A DNA stretch of 43,804 bases from Pseudomonas sp. GM78. GTDB taxonomy: Bacteria > Pseudomonadota > Gammaproteobacteria > Pseudomonadales > Pseudomonadaceae. The position numbers were made by a program, and so were the translations under genes. The stretch is from positions 1-43,804 of the forward strand of contig NZ_AKJF01000142.1 in NCBI RefSeq assembly GCF_000282475.1. The letters are read 5' to 3'. The notes under the pieces were generated by a model. That model did no database searches, was not told where the DNA came from, and saw only the letters and a program-made list of their open reading frames with translations. This document shows positions 10,841 through 17,381 of the stretch, in pieces (position 1 is the stretch's first letter; every line of letters starts with the position of its first letter).

Positions 10841-11395
10841 ATGGACATGCAAGAAGAGATTTCGGCGCTGGCGATCCTGATCCAGGACCTGCGCAAGCAC
10901 AAGAAGTACACCTTGAAGGATCTGGCCGACAAGATCGGCCGCTCCGTGGGTTTTCTTTCCCAGGTCGAGCGCGGCTTGTCCCGCCCCACGGTGGCGGACT
11001 TGACCGCCATCAGCGAGACCCTCGGCGTGCCCACCACCTATTTCTACAGCCTGCCCAAACCCATGGCCCTGCCCTGGGTGACCCGGCCGGATGAGCGCCG
11101 CACGTTGTATTACGCCGATGGCATCACCGACATTCTGGTTTCGCCAAAAATGCGCGCCTCCTTTTCCATGCTCGAAAGCCAGCTGGAGCCCGGCGCCAGC
11201 AGCGGCGACCGGCACATGAAGGACAGCTCGGAGCAGGGCGGCTATGTGCTGGAAGGGGAACTGACCCTGTGGCTCGACCAGGACGAACCGGTGACCCTGC
11301 GCGCCGGCGACAGCTTTCAGCTGGCCAGCCATGCCCACTGCCGCTACGGCAACCTCTCGGACCAACTGACCCGCGTACTTTGGGTCTACACCTGA
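10841..11395 (+). CDS. XRE-cupin transcriptional regulator (PuuR/PauR-like)
   Basis: The 184-residue regulator has an N-terminal XRE helix-turn-helix (about 12-67; LKDLADKIGRSVGFLSQVER) and a C-terminal cupin (about 105-180; LEGELTLWLDQDE and LRAGDSFQLAS). This is the PuuR/PauR/BauR type that senses amines or their gamma-glutamyl forms. GGAAG lies eight bases before the ATG. It is sandwiched between the oxidase and glutamine synthetase genes, so it probably autoregulates this operon. It may also control the divergent purU-folD-sox operon, since no other regulator is nearby. The last point is inference. Confidence 0.85.
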   Translation: MDMQEEISALAILIQDLRKHKKYTLKDLADKIGRSVGFLSQVERGLSRPTVADLTAISETLGVPTTYFYSLPKPMALPWVTRPDERRTLYYADGITDILVSPKMRASFSMLESQLEPGASSGDRHMKDSSEQGGYVLEGELTLWLDQDEPVTLRAGDSFQLASHAHCRYGNLSDQLTRVLWVYT

Positions 11396-12954: not shown

Positions 12955-13235
12955 GCCTGAAATTCGGTGTCATTTAGATCGATTATTTCCTTGGGCTATT
13001 TAGATAGGCCCAAACTGCATATCCATGACCGAAGAACCCACGCAGTGGCGTTGACCTTGTCCGCTATCGAGGACGCTTGTTCGTCATGGCAGAAAAATCT
13101 GTCCCGCCTGCTTCATTGAGGCTGCCCCAACGTCGACTTTGACTGTTCGACCGACAGCTTGATGCGCCTGGCTGAATCCATAGAATCCGCCCCATCAGCT
13201 TCGTCCAACTATCCAGTCCTTCAGGGAGCAACACC

Positions 13236-13739
13236 ATGATGAATGCCATGCAGATGCCAATGAACACCAACATGCCGATGATGCCGATGATGGGCATGCC
13301 GATGATGATGGCGACCATGACCTGCGACATGATGGACGACGGCATGATGTGCAAGATGATGCCGGCCGCTGGCATGGACATGGCGATGTTCAAGAACAGC
13401 GCTGAAATGATGCAGATGATGATGAACTGCGGCATGCCGATGATGATGCACTGCGGCAACATGAGCATGATGTGCATGTCCCAGGCGAGCATGAGCATGC
13501 CGATGGCGAATATGATGATGCCCATGCCGATGATGGGCATGCCGATGCCATCGATGAAGTGCGTGATGGAATGCACCATGATGGCCGACGGCATGATGTG
13601 CAAAATCATGCCGATGGCCGGCATGAACATGGACATGATGAAAAACTGCTGCGCCCTGATGATGAAGATGATGAACGACTGCAGCATGCCGATGATGATG
13701 AGCTGCAACGGCATGCCGCTGATGTGCTGCACCTGCTGA
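13236..13739 (+). CDS. Methionine- and cysteine-rich protein with internal duplication, unknown function
   Basis: The 167-residue protein contains 70 methionines (42%) and 15 cysteines. It is built from two similar halves: each has an M-G-M-P-M opening, a C-x-M-M-x-D-G-M-M-C-K-x-M-P block, a G-M-x-M helix-like stretch and an S/G-M-P-M-M-M-x-C-x-x-M/G ending. No signal peptide or transmembrane segment is evident. A GGGAG ribosome binding site lies 12 bases before ATGATG, and the frame is intact, so it appears expressed. Such Met/Cys spacing fits soft-metal (Cu(I), Ag) binding or an oxidant sink, but this is inference. I recall only unannotated Pseudomonas relatives. The stop codon lies in the first unit of a heptamer repeat. 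The minus-strand frames here are shadows. Confidence 0.72.
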   Translation: MMNAMQMPMNTNMPMMPMMGMPMMMATMTCDMMDDGMMCKMMPAAGMDMAMFKNSAEMMQMMMNCGMPMMMHCGNMSMMCMSQASMSMPMANMMMPMPMMGMPMPSMKCVMECTMMADGMMCKIMPMAGMNMDMMKNCCALMMKMMNDCSMPMMMSCNGMPLMCCTC

Positions 13740-13787
13740 TTGCTGATTGCTGATTGCTGATTGCTGATTGCTGATTGCTGATTGCTG
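13734..13787. repeat. Heptanucleotide tandem array (TGCTGAT, seven copies plus part)
   Basis: Seven perfect TGCTGAT units run from 13734 to 13782, followed by TGCTG. The first unit supplies the TGA stop of the Met-rich gene (13737-13739). Copy-number change would not alter the protein because the stop is in the first unit. Confidence 0.95.
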
Positions 13788-13790
13788 TAC

Positions 13791-13895
13791 CTGTAGGAGC
13801 TGCCGCAGGCTGCGATCTTTTGATCTTGATTTTGGCGGCTTCAAGACCGCTGGAGATCAAGATCAAAAGATCGCAGCCTGCGGCAGCTCCTACAG
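13791..13895. repeat. Perfect 40-bp inverted repeat (REP-like palindromic element)
   Basis: The arms 13791-13830 and 13856-13895 are exact reverse complements of 40 bases, separated by 25 bases that hold a smaller dyad. The outer ends read CTGTAGGAGCTGCCGCAGG. This is a different family from the GTAGGAGCGAGCC REPs in the window. As RNA it would form a very stable hairpin between convergent genes. Confidence 0.95.
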
Positions 13896-13900
13896 TTCGT

Positions 13901-13949
13901 CCGTTTCAGTCCGTTCAGTCCGTTCAGTTCGGTTCAGTTCGGTTCAGTC
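13901..13949. repeat. Tandem decamer-like array (CCGTTCAGT variants, five copies)
   Basis: Five imperfect 9-10-base units of the form C-C/G-G-T-T-C-A-G-T/TT follow each other. The array contains the last codons and the stop (TGA, reverse complement of 13944-13946) of the XRE-cupin gene. Confidence 0.8.
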
Positions 13950-14591
13950 CAGGCGTTCGGGGTAGGTCACTACCAGATAAGCCACCGCTTCGCTGTCAGC
14001 CGGGTTGCGATAGCGGTGAGGCTGGTCGGCATAAAACAGGATCGAGTCGCCTGTTGAAAGCAGGTAGCGTTCATCATTGACGCTGATTTCCAGCACGCCC
14101 TGGGACACCACCAGGTTTTCCTGGACTCCGGGGCCATGGCCTTCGCTCTGGTCCTCACCCAAGGGGCTCAGGCGCAATTCATAAAATTCCGATTGGCGCG
14201 CCACGTCGAACGGGAACAGCGCACGGCTGACAAACGCACCATTGGCACTGACCAGGCGCTTGCTCTGGCTTGCCGACAACAGCGCTACGCCTTCGAAGGC
14301 CCGATGCTCGAGAAACGCAGCCACCGAAACCTTCAAGCCTTTGGCGATTTTGCACAGCACCTTGATCGACGGCACGCTGCGCCCGGATTCGATCTGCGCC
14401 AGCATCGCCCGGCTCACGCCACACTGGCGGGCCAGCGCATCGAGAGACAGGTGACGCTTGCTGCGCAGGCGTTGAAGATTCTGTGCCACCCGTTCGCAGT
14501 TGGCGTCCTCCTCCTGATGCTCCAGTTGATTGAAGTCCAGCGCAGGTTCATCGGCGCTGACCAGATAGCGCGAGGGAGGGTGCACGTTCAC
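13944..14591 (-). CDS. XRE-cupin transcriptional regulator
   Basis: The 215-residue protein has an XRE helix-turn-helix (about 35-90; LSLDALARQCGVSRAMLAQIE, then SGRSVPSIKVL) and a C-terminal cupin (about 135-212; VVSQGVLEISVNDERY and LSTGDSILFYADQPHRYRN). This architecture senses small molecules and represses or activates amino-acid or amine genes. The GTG at 14589-14591 was chosen because it overlaps the TGA of an upstream 53-codon ORF as GTGA. The longer frame back to 14672 is possible but its extra residues look like a frame-shadow of that ORF. Its target is not evident. Confidence 0.78.
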   Translation of the reverse strand: MNVHPPSRYLVSADEPALDFNQLEHQEEDANCERVAQNLQRLRSKRHLSLDALARQCGVSRAMLAQIESGRSVPSIKVLCKIAKGLKVSVAAFLEHRAFEGVALLSASQSKRLVSANGAFVSRALFPFDVARQSEFYELRLSPLGEDQSEGHGPGVQENLVVSQGVLEISVNDERYLLSTGDSILFYADQPHRYRNPADSEAVAYLVVTYPERLD

Positions 14592-14749
14592 GCGTGACGA
14601 GTCTCGGTCGCCTTGGCCACTTGCGCCCATGGGAAGGCCTGGAGAGCGGCGTTTCGTGCGTACATTTCCCACATGGCCCGTGCCCGTTGCTGAGCCTGTT
14701 TGCGCTTGCGGTAGCTGGCGAAGTCGATGAGGTTGTCAGTCGGATTCAT
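14588..14749 (-). CDS. Small 53-residue protein coupled to the XRE-cupin gene
   Basis: The ORF begins at ATG 14747-14749 (MNPTDNLIDFASYRKRKQ) and ends with TGA overlapping the GTG start of the regulator by four bases. It is rich in R, K, Q and A with a predicted basic helix in the middle and has no signal peptide. The ribosome binding site is weak (GAAG). The four-base overlap and protein-like composition support a real coupled gene. I do not recognise a family. It could be a regulatory leader peptide or a small partner of the regulator. Confidence 0.5.
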   Translation of the reverse strand: MNPTDNLIDFASYRKRKQAQQRARAMWEMYARNAALQAFPWAQVAKATETRHA

Positions 14750-15009
14750 GGGGCACTTCACTGTGGTCGATGACGGGTGAGTGGAGGATACCTGCGTTTA
14801 GTTATAACCATAAATACTTATTAACTATTTATTAATTCGTTTTAGTTCTTATTGGTTGCGGCGCATCCGCGCATTGGCAGATAAGATTTATATTCCTAAA
14901 AGGTCTAAATAGATAATTATATATTCCTTTTAATATCATCAAGGGCAGTGCACCTTGGAGGCCTGCCCCTTCATTCGTAAGGGCAAGCCACCAGACAGGA
15001 AGCCTCAAC

Positions 15010-15225
15010 ATGACCATCAAAGCGATCAACGTCCGTAACCAGTTCAAGGGCGTCATCAAGGAAATACTGGAAGGCGAAGTGGTCTCGGAAATCGACGTGC
15101 AAACGGCGTCGGGCATCGTCACCTCGGTGATCACCACCCGTTCGGTTCGCGACCTTGAACTGAAGGTGGGGAGCGAGGTGATTGCCTTCGTGAAATCTAC
15201 CGAAGTCTCGATCGCCAAGCTGTGA
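15010..15225 (+). CDS. Molbindin-type TOBE domain protein (molybdate/pterin-binding)
   Basis: The 71-residue protein consists of a single TOBE/Mop domain: I-N-V-R-N-Q-F-K-G-V-I at the start, V-S-E-I-D-V in the middle and G-S-E-V-I-A-F-V-K-S-T-E-V-S-I at the end. Molbindins oligomerise and store or buffer molybdate or tungstate in the cytoplasm. GGAAG lies nine bases before the ATG, and a hairpin terminator follows at 15251. No other molybdenum gene is nearby, so it is a stand-alone gene. The region before it (14790-14940) is very AT-rich. Confidence 0.88.
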   Translation: MTIKAINVRNQFKGVIKEILEGEVVSEIDVQTASGIVTSVITTRSVRDLELKVGSEVIAFVKSTEVSIAKL

Positions 15226-15283: not shown

Positions 15284-16675
15284 TCAGGGCATCAATCCTC
15301 TTACTATGCAGCGATTGCGTGCTTCGCCTTCTTTGACGATTACGGTAAAAACGACCTTGTTGTTTTTGATGGCGGATGAATAAAAACCAACACTCGTCGC
15401 TTCCTTATAGTCAAGCCAACCGACCCCATTATTATAGTCCTTGTCATGAACGCCATTGTAAAGAAAGCGCGTGATCGCGTAATGAGTTTTATCTCGATTT
15501 TCAATGTCGATAATTCCGGTACTCAAAAAACTTCCGTCAGGCAGGAAGTCGGTGTTGAACCAAATTGTGCTGGATGAATTTATGTTCGTGAATACCGGAT
15601 CCCCACCGTTGAATTGAATGTTTTTTGAGCCGTCTGCTTCCCTGCTGGTTAAAAGCCCGGAAATAGAGGTGTCGTGTCTTGAATGCCTTGTGCCTGTGCA
15701 CAGGATGCGATTGTTGGGTTGCTTTACGGCACCGAAAAGTTCCCAATAATAGAGTGGGTCTTCATCGTATATCAGCAGAGAACCGTTCTGCTGAAAGGTG
15801 GTATCCAGTCTGCCATCTTGGCTGTGTTTTACGAGAACAATGGCATCAGGGTGATGCAAAAAATCCAACTTGACTTCGCCTGCAGTGATGTAGTTGCCCG
15901 CATCGTCAACGGTCAGGCTTTTCAGTTTGATGTGGGTAAATCTGTCATGCCGGACACGGACAAATCCGGAGCCATTGAATGAAACATCAAGCTCCCCACT
16001 TTGGGTCAGGCGGATGATCCAAGCATCAGTTGACAACCAGTTGCCTGAATCGTGAAGCAATATGATGTGGTCGCCGTGTATTGGTGATGCTCCGAGCACA
16101 TAGGGTGTAAGCTCGTTTGGAGAGTTGGATGCAGCGCATCTGGAGTTGGCGATTTCCAGACATTTTTCGTTGTACTCAGATACAGCGCGTAAATCAGTAT
16201 TCGTATCAGGAGCGTGGAAAATGAATTTTCCTTCTACGGCAAATGTTTTATCAATGGTGCCATCGAGAAGAAAACGAACGGCAGCCTTGTCCTTCTGCAA
16301 AACACCGTTTACATAGTGAAAGAGCTCTCCTGTCAGCAGAATTCTGTTATTCACAAAGGCAATCTGTTCGGCGATGAATTTTGAACTATCTGATCCGTAA
16401 AAAATACCGCCGAAGAAACCTTGGTAACCAAAACTGGTGTCAACAGAGCCGTCTTCATTCAGGCATGCCAGCATGTAGAGGCTTTTGCTGATGATGACTG
16501 GATCACTCAGCAAGCCCGCGACGTAAATCTTATTGTCAGGGCCTACAGAGACAACATGTAATGACAATTGCGTGTAAGTGTTGGATGGAGAATGAAGATA
16601 GGCAAAGCCGTTTTCACCAAAAAGTGGATCATATTCAGTTGATAGGGGAGAGGAGTGTATGTGTTCTGTGGTCAT
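15284..16675 (-). CDS. Delta-60 repeat (beta-propeller-like) protein
   Basis: The 463-residue protein contains several delta-60 repeats, recognisable by L-N-E-D-G-S-V-D-T-S-F-G-Y-Q-G, L-L-D-G-T-I-D-K-T-F, L-T-Q-S-G-E-L-D-V-S-F-N-G-S-G and Q-D-G-R-L-D-T-T-F, each after a hydrophobic strand. Such proteins are found singly in Pseudomonas; their role is unknown and no signal peptide is apparent. The ATG at 16675 (MTTEHIH) has AAGGGA upstream; the frame extends 17 codons further without support. The gene is clearly more AT-rich than its neighbours and uses many A/T-ending codons, which suggests horizontal acquisition. Confidence 0.75.
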   Translation of the reverse strand: MTTEHIHSSPLSTEYDPLFGENGFAYLHSPSNTYTQLSLHVVSVGPDNKIYVAGLLSDPVIISKSLYMLACLNEDGSVDTSFGYQGFFGGIFYGSDSSKFIAEQIAFVNNRILLTGELFHYVNGVLQKDKAAVRFLLDGTIDKTFAVEGKFIFHAPDTNTDLRAVSEYNEKCLEIANSRCAASNSPNELTPYVLGASPIHGDHIILLHDSGNWLSTDAWIIRLTQSGELDVSFNGSGFVRVRHDRFTHIKLKSLTVDDAGNYITAGEVKLDFLHHPDAIVLVKHSQDGRLDTTFQQNGSLLIYDEDPLYYWELFGAVKQPNNRILCTGTRHSRHDTSISGLLTSREADGSKNIQFNGGDPVFTNINSSSTIWFNTDFLPDGSFLSTGIIDIENRDKTHYAITRFLYNGVHDKDYNNGVGWLDYKEATSVGFYSSAIKNNKVVFTVIVKEGEARNRCIVRGLMP

Positions 16676-16884
16676 TGTACTTTCCCTTGATGTAGTGGGC
16701 GAATACGTTTGCATTCGCATCCTCAACTCGTTAAGCCAAAGGCAGGATGGTGCTACTGCTCTCTATGAGACAAGGGGGTGGGGAAATGAACAACTGTCAG
16801 AATTAACAGGTTTGCCGATTAAATTGAAATAAAAAAGCTTTCTGGCGGTGATTTTCCGATAGGCCTCCAAAAAGCAGCAGTCAT

Positions 16885-16940: not shown

Positions 16941-17381
16941 TCAGGCGACGGTGTTGCCTTGCAGGCGGTCGGAACCATCGGCAGCAATGGTCTTGCCTTG
17001 CAGGCGATCGGAGCCATCGGCAGCAATGGTGTTGCCTTGCAGGCGATCGGAACCATCGGCAGCGACGGTATTACCTTGCAGACGATCCGAGCCATCCGCA
17101 GCGACAGTGTTGCCTTGCAGGCGATCCGAGCCATCAGCCGCGACGGTGTTGCCTTGCAGACGATCCGAACCATCGGCAGCCACACGATTTTCGATCAGGC
17201 GATCCGAACCGCCTTCAGCCACACGATTCTCGATCAAACGATCCGAACCACCTTCAGCCACCCGGCTTTCAATCAGACGATCCGAGCTACCTTCAGCCAC
17301 GACAGGCTGAACAGAGGTAGCGGCAAAAGCGTTAACTGCAAAAACCGAGAAAGCGATGCTGAGGAGGATTTGGCGTTTCAT
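16941..17381 (-). CDS. Exported protein of nine 13-residue repeats
   Basis: The 146-residue protein has a clear Sec signal peptide (MKRQILLSIAFSVFAVNAFA, cleavage after residue 20) followed by nine tandem 13-residue units. Three are of the type V-A-E-G-G-S-D-R-L-I-E-N-R and six of the type V-A-A-D-G-S-D-R-L-Q-G-N-T. The ATG follows GGAGC. In other Pseudomonas I recall such proteins being named 'phage infection protein' without solid experimental backing; the function is unknown. The G-S-D-R-L core is invariant except for one unit. The DNA repeats are 39 bases and nearly identical, so copy number may vary between strains. It is probably periplasmic or secreted. Confidence 0.8.
   Translation of the reverse strand: MKRQILLSIAFSVFAVNAFAATSVQPVVAEGSSDRLIESRVAEGGSDRLIENRVAEGGSDRLIENRVAADGSDRLQGNTVAADGSDRLQGNTVAADGSDRLQGNTVAADGSDRLQGNTIAADGSDRLQGKTIAADGSDRLQGNTVA

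Follow-up and report, generated by a model that had tools for sequence, protein, structure and literature searches.

A three-gene module of Pseudomonas encoding a methionine- and cysteine-rich protein and a convergent XRE-cupin regulator

The Met/Cys-rich gene and its predicted product

The stretch of DNA analysed here (the window, 43,804 nucleotides of a Pseudomonas sp. GM78 contig) encodes a small protein in which Met and Cys make up half of all residues, and a convergent regulator gene preceded by a small ORF. The features of the locus are as follows.

12974..13026 (+): conserved upstream block TTAGATCGATTATTTC...CATATCCAT, ~210-260 bp before the ATG
13159..13186 (+): sigma-70-type promoter TTGATG-N16-TAGAAT
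13224..13228 (+): Shine-Dalgarno sequence GGGAG
13236..13739 (+): gene of the Met/Cys-rich protein, ATG to TGA
13236..13307 (+): N-terminal Met-Pro tail, residues 1-24, without Cys
13308..13478 (+): repeat 1, residues 25-81, with Cys 30, 39, 65, 73 and 80; predicted beta-beta-alpha-beta-beta
13479..13550 (+): linker, residues 82-105
13551..13736 (+): repeat 2, residues 106-167, with 10 Cys; predicted topology as in repeat 1
13944..14591 (-): convergent XRE-cupin regulator gene, 215 aa from a GTG whose position is taken from the overlap with the small ORF's stop
14588..14749 (-): conserved 53-aa ORF ahead of the XRE-cupin gene, its TGA overlapping the regulator's likely GTG
14810..14832 (no strand assigned): palindrome ATAAATA-N9-TATTTAT in a conserved AT-rich stretch before the small ORF; candidate operator of the XRE-cupin protein
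15010..15225 (+): 71-aa TOBE/Mop protein, SsuF-like

The initial annotation of this DNA had described a duplicated protein of 167 aa with 70 Met (42%) and 15 Cys, and our analysis agreed with it at 13236-13739 (+). The calculated mass is 18.8 kDa and the pI 4.7, sulfur accounts for ~14.5% of the mass, and a chain holds between 73 and 90 sulfur atoms (mean 84.5) across 80 sequences. With regard to the duplication, residues 25-86 aligned to residues 104-167 with a BLOSUM62 score of 176, compared with a mean of 57 and a maximum of 94 in 1000 composition shuffles.

A contig scan returned 190 matches to the pattern and 130 relatives, the best 80 of which were kept; by record these are all Pseudomonas except L081 (gamma proteobacterium L18). 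The ORF is encoded in 81/81 loci (the window, L001, plus the best 80 of 130 relatives), with a full-length start in 80. L062, a shortened copy on a contig from the same strain as L027, was left out of the alignments. The median dN/dS was 0.19 over 3154 usable of 3160 pairs, with 2 pairs at 0.5 or more, and codon position 3 was the most variable (69 of 166 columns vs. 38 and 45 at the other positions). Upstream, TTGNNN-N16-TAGAAT-like boxes, each with a 16-bp spacer, were found in 79/80 regions and a Shine-Dalgarno-like motif in 80/80, and the initial annotation was right about a good ribosome binding site and promoter. Because of the low dN/dS and the shared promoter geometry, we consider the ORF to be a real gene, and it is under purifying selection; a chance or antisense ORF is ruled out by dN/dS, the codon-position pattern, and the conserved promoter. 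In its own genome, the conserved upstream block was unique at fewer than 3 mismatches, and allowing up to 3 gave 4 matches vs. 8 for a control pattern.

Among 298 Pseudomonas genomes, 63 (about a fifth) carried the protein, with a single match each, and an internal stop occurred in 0/63 of these matches. No match was found in the plasmid or phage collections, and carriage by such elements was rejected. The protein had no Pfam, NCBIfam, or PHROG family match and no PDB sequence match up to E 10, and by its sequence it appears to stand outside every family library searched. As the initial annotation had supposed, no described function was found in the literature searched, which had few subscription journals.

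Cys positions are kept in place more strictly than Met positions. In the alignment of 80 sequences, 13 of the 15 Cys columns reach a conservation of 98% or more, and on average the Cys residues of the window are matched at an identity of 0.99, compared with 0.93 for its Met residues; in Met-majority columns, Leu is the commonest substitute (113 cells). The linker varies in length from 16 to 28 residues while Met makes up 35-56% of it throughout (79 sequences; L033 unparsed). Met accounts for 52% of the first 28 residues, and both the N-terminal tail and the linker drift in sequence but keep their high content of sulfur amino acids. Residues 1-24 lack Cys, Lys, and Arg in 80/80 sequences. Without Lys or Arg there is no n-region of the Sec or Tat type; the earlier statement that a signal peptide is missing thus holds, and the protein is most simply read as cytoplasmic.

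AlphaFold2 gave a mean pLDDT of 59 with 30 alignment rows and of 66.9 (moderate confidence; pTM 0.62) with 80 rows, and the latter model predicts a strand-strand-helix-strand-strand arrangement in each half. Model confidence is low at residues 1-22 and 89-105, which fall in the tail and the linker. Fold searches against PDB and BFVD gave nothing at E<=0.001.

Two repetitive features lie directly downstream. Seven tandem TGATTGC copies run from the Met-rich stop codon (13737-13785) and are absent in 11 other downstream stretches compared. A long inverted repeat, TGTAGGAGCTGCCGCAGGCTGCGATC ... GATCGCAGCCTGCGGCAGCTCCTACA (13792-13894), sits between the convergent genes and is presumably a Pseudomonas REP-type element.

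A module with an XRE-cupin regulator and a small ORF

The convergent gene encodes an N-terminal HTH and a C-terminal cupin domain (HTH_3 and Cupin_2, both above gathering scores). It was present in 76/80 other loci (from the best 80 of 130 relatives), in most cases at a distance of 0.5-0.9 kb from the Met-rich start; the rest of the flanks varies from clade to clade. Two of the four loci without it (L033 and L043) end no more than 0.3 kb past the Met-rich gene; the other two (L005 and L060) have no regulator in the 6 kb read. At the genome level, the regulator reached our presence threshold (E<=1e-30) in 68 of the 298 Pseudomonas genomes: 62 had both genes, 1 the protein only, and 6 the regulator only (Fisher p 8e-56). 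The gene of the protein-only genome (G206) lies at a contig edge. As for the regulator-only genomes, G178 and G279 have partial or broken copies, G273 is at a contig edge, the G183 regulator is 96% identical from residue 58 on and interrupted before, and those of G198 and G244 are distant homologues (53 and 49% identity).

The 53-aa ORF probably forms a two-gene operon with the XRE-cupin gene. Its homologue was found in 75/81 module loci and in 0/51 background regions, these being regions of 12.5 kb taken at 15, 40, and 65% of 17 single-contig module-bearing genomes (two of them were shifted away from the module). Most of the translations compared contain the pattern V-I-D-F/L-x-x-Y-R-K-R-K-x-A-Q, and the 53-aa protein has a single match in the genome and no Pfam or PHROG family. 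The Met/Cys-rich protein, the XRE-cupin regulator, and the small ORF are a three-gene module, so far restricted to Pseudomonas among the genomes sampled. The initial annotation was sound on the Met-rich gene itself (real, duplicated, and cytoplasmic as far as its sequence tells) but had missed its module partner, the small ORF, and the sulfonate neighbourhood described below.

Several similarities suggest that the regulator is an XRE-cupin protein of the SutR/1Y9Q type. It is 32% identical over 177 residues to Escherichia coli SutR (YdcN), which reportedly has a role in sulfur utilization. The best solved relative is 1y9q, at E 2.4e-24 (residues 11-182 of 192, against residues 61-240), and a DQPHxY stretch is common to our regulator and this Vibrio cholerae XRE-cupin protein, whose cupin pocket is described with D-methionine in the excerpted text of PMC7901475. 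Six distant regulator homologues in the class (E 3e-30 to 5e-24) have other neighbours, with a BenE/YdcO-like transporter in 3 of them by translation inspection (~1.5 kb each side). The Met-rich profile matched no genome but the window's own among 274 class genomes from 222 genera. Three sister regulators (L082, L083, and L141, in G198, G244, and G256) adjoin an aldo-keto-reductase-like gene in 3/3 cases and genes for an ABC transporter and an NtaA/DmoA-type flavin monooxygenase in 2/3, and L082 also adjoins a TauD-family dioxygenase; family scans of this group were made mainly on L082, and the genes of the other loci are named by likeness. The window holds a second XRE-cupin-like gene (10841-11395, +; 184 aa, SutR-similar) between an amine-oxidase-like and a glutamine-synthetase-family gene, which we place outside the module because its three-gene set recurs in only 4/80 loci.

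Local control by such regulators has precedents in the genus. According to excerpts of PMC7901475, P. aeruginosa regulators of the XRE-cupin type inhibit genes in their vicinity, all of the factors studied bind beside their own gene, and 6/7 regulate the adjacent gene. Our module resembles the PauR, PsdR, ErfA, and PA0535 units in those excerpts (PMC7901475): an XRE-HTH plus cupin regulator adjoins a conserved gene, the pair stays together across the genus, and a candidate operator palindrome precedes the regulator's own operon. It differs in that the neighbours in the excerpted units are mostly enzymes or transporters, whereas the Met/Cys-rich partner belongs to no known family and would be controlled by analogy with them.

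The palindrome is the only perfect match in its own genome, and 16 sites have two or fewer mismatches, compared with 9 for a control pattern. An operator common to the promoters of the regulator operon and of the Met-rich gene gained no significant support: a PWM scan beat all 60 shuffles in 1/19 loci (L002). In 11/19 loci the best-scoring position shared its final TCTAA, the complement of the conserved TTAGA; this hint was not significant. A consensus alignment gave p 0.15, with 10/76 loci below 0.05. Since the palindrome has no significant counterpart before the Met-rich gene, the regulator's proposed control of that gene rests on linkage and precedent.

Sulfonate genes in the wider region

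Recurrent neighbours of the module carried NCBIfam names of the SsuA-family, SsuC-like, alkanesulfonate-monooxygenase-like, and MetQ-like kinds, as well as NtaA/DmoA names. We therefore searched the module loci (mean 12.0 kb) and the background regions with E. coli SsuA/C/D and TauA/C/D queries at E<=1e-10; this test was chosen after such names had appeared among the neighbours and was not blind. Homologues were found in 29/81 module loci vs. 2/51 background regions (p 7.7e-6), and they were absent from 52/81 module loci. The difference persisted when loci were collapsed at 97, 92, and 88% protein identity, where 21/56, 9/28, and 7/18 first members were positive (p 1.3e-5, 0.001, and 0.0008, respectively). 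No module locus (0/81) had an SsuE or TauD homologue. SsuB-type ATPases (27/81 vs. 9/51 at E<=1e-5) were not counted as sulfonate genes, as ABC ATPases are general, and a count of 36/80 loci with sulfur-like neighbour clusters was set aside, the clusters having been picked after reading. The TOBE/Mop protein of the window had homologues in 17/81 module loci (window included) vs. 0/51 background regions, a count that is biased because the query was the window's own protein. The ssu locus of fluorescent pseudomonads includes a molybdopterin-binding SsuF, according to the excerpted text of PMC8079746.

To what extent this enrichment belongs to the module was addressed with a matched control, in which the module region of 20 module-bearing genomes was compared with 40 regions 30 kb to either side. 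Sulfonate genes occurred in 7/20 module regions vs. 8/40 flanks (p 0.17) and 2/51 background regions (p 0.0014); with MetQ, MetI, and NtaA added, the counts were 8/20 vs. 8/40 (p 0.09) and 3/51. TOBE homologues were found in 2/20 module regions, 0/40 flanks, and 0/51 background regions. Sulfonate genes are thus enriched in the wider region around the module, and because the flanks 30 kb away also carry them (8/40 vs. 7/20), the association is with a broader stretch and not demonstrably with the module. It is possible that an accessory-region effect lies behind the enrichment.

Copper genes (CopA, CueR, CusCFBA, and CueO queries) were found in 3/81 module loci vs. 5/51 background regions (p 0.96), and in 0/20 module regions, 4/40 flanks, and 5/51 background regions of the matched control. 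The initial annotation had seen no copper gene adjacent, which is right for the window and fits these counts. Msr genes were found in 5/81 module loci vs. 2/51 background regions (p 0.45), and in 2/20 module regions vs. 0/40 flanks (p 0.11; 2/51 background regions). Linkage to copper or Msr genes was accordingly rejected as an explanation, as neither set was enriched across module loci. Taken together, the surroundings point to sulfur nutrition, not to copper or bleach defence.

In 14 loci, including L054, L057, L058, L059, L065, L066, L068, L069, L071, L072, L075, and L078, a TonB-dependent-receptor-like gene lies ~1.5 kb after the Met-rich start, and beyond it are sigma-70-like (10 loci) and FecR-like (15 loci) genes, all named by translation inspection. 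The substrate of this receptor-like gene might be informative.

Possible functions of the Met/Cys-rich protein

Our preferred reading, which we put forward tentatively and at somewhat less than an even chance, is that the protein is a cytoplasmic reserve or sink of sulfur amino acids under the control of a sulfur metabolite. Through its cupin domain, the XRE-cupin regulator would sense such a metabolite, methionine or a related compound, and would control the Met/Cys-rich gene. The protein could then be made when sulfur amino acids are plentiful, hold ~85 sulfur atoms per chain, and be degraded when sulfur is scarce. We favour sulfur economy because of the composition, the kinship of the regulator, and the genomic setting. 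The near-invariant Cys and the two folded repeats, as predicted, would nonetheless be more than a mere reserve needs, and fixed Cys positions together with folded repeats speak for binding, for example of Cu(I)/Ag(I).

The initial annotation had offered Cu(I)/Ag(I) binding or an oxidant sink, and this proposal fared unevenly: copper and Msr genes are not enriched, while the near-invariant Cys and the Met-Pro tails do suit Cu(I)/Ag(I). A cytoplasmic soft-metal buffer resembling a metallothionein, with Cu(I)/Ag(I) held by the Cys of the folded repeats and the Met-Pro tails adding weaker sites, seems to us unlikely. The Cys conservation described above, the confinement of Cys to the part after residue 24, the Met-x-Met and Met-Pro-Met-Met tails, and the predicted folded repeats all agree with it. 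The copper-gene counts argue against it, and a loose CueR/MerR-like pattern, the one that was tried, occurred in 0/80 upstream regions. MerR-type promoters have a spacer of 19-20 bp, compared with 16 bp here. Cupins can hold metal, but the partner regulator belongs to no metal-sensor family. Cytosolic Cu(I) storage does exist in bacteria, namely in Csp3, a Cys-lined four-helix bundle that stores copper in the cytosol, according to excerpts of PMC5171941. The Met/Cys-rich protein is like Csp3 in being cytosolic by prediction and rich in sulfur ligands, and unlike it in its two predicted beta-beta-alpha-beta-beta repeats and great excess of Met.

A sacrificial oxidant sink, in which Met would take up HOCl or other oxidants and be restored by cytoplasmic MsrA/MsrB, is in our judgement quite improbable. 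The Met content of 42%, maintained in the tails and linker despite sequence drift, would suit this role; on the other hand, Cys positions are kept more strictly than Met, and the Msr counts given above show no enrichment. The parallel would be MrpX of Azospira, reportedly a periplasmic Met-rich peptide. Both are small and Met-rich, but our protein has no signal peptide, contains 15 Cys and two predicted folded repeats, and does not lie near an excess of Msr genes. Least likely, and in our opinion improbable to a high degree, is that the protein acts as a regulatory partner, i.e., an accessory of the XRE-cupin protein and the small ORF that responds to redox state or methionine, such as a condensing Met-rich modulator. 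Its near-obligate co-occurrence with the regulator, the conservation of all three genes, and the pairing of low-confidence Met-rich tails with predicted folded repeats are consistent with this, whereas the convergent, non-operonic arrangement argues against it.

The sulfur reserve or sink that we prefer also has a bolder form, which we consider doubtful: a dedicated bacterial sulfur reserve, half Met and Cys and a counterpart of cyanophycin for sulfur, switched by a methionine-type XRE-cupin repressor and placed in chromosome regions rich in organosulfur uptake. Bacterial reserves of nitrogen, carbon, and phosphorus are textbook knowledge, and to the best of our knowledge no protein reserve for reduced sulfur has been described in bacteria. 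In the literature searched, no bacterial protein-bound sulfur reserve turned up among the matches listed, which concerned plants. Plant seeds store Met-rich proteins such as 2S albumins and zeins, and the Met/Cys-rich protein would have the same role as a protein-bound sulfur reserve. Pseudomonads of soil and plants are exposed to organic sulfur, and the module may offer a handle on how they bank or buffer it. Should its role instead be to bind Cu(I) or to take up oxidants, the protein would nevertheless represent a Met-based cytoplasmic family outside the libraries searched, with an unusual regulator.

Two further genes lie on the opposite strand beyond the TOBE/Mop gene. At 16941-17381 (-) is a gene for a 146-aa secreted-looking repeat protein (A-A-D-G-S-D-R-L-Q-G-N-T type) with no Pfam or NCBIfam match, whose cluster occurs in 6/80 loci, window included. 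The gene at 15284-16726 (-) encodes a 480-aa protein with delta-60/DUF5122 beta-propeller repeats.
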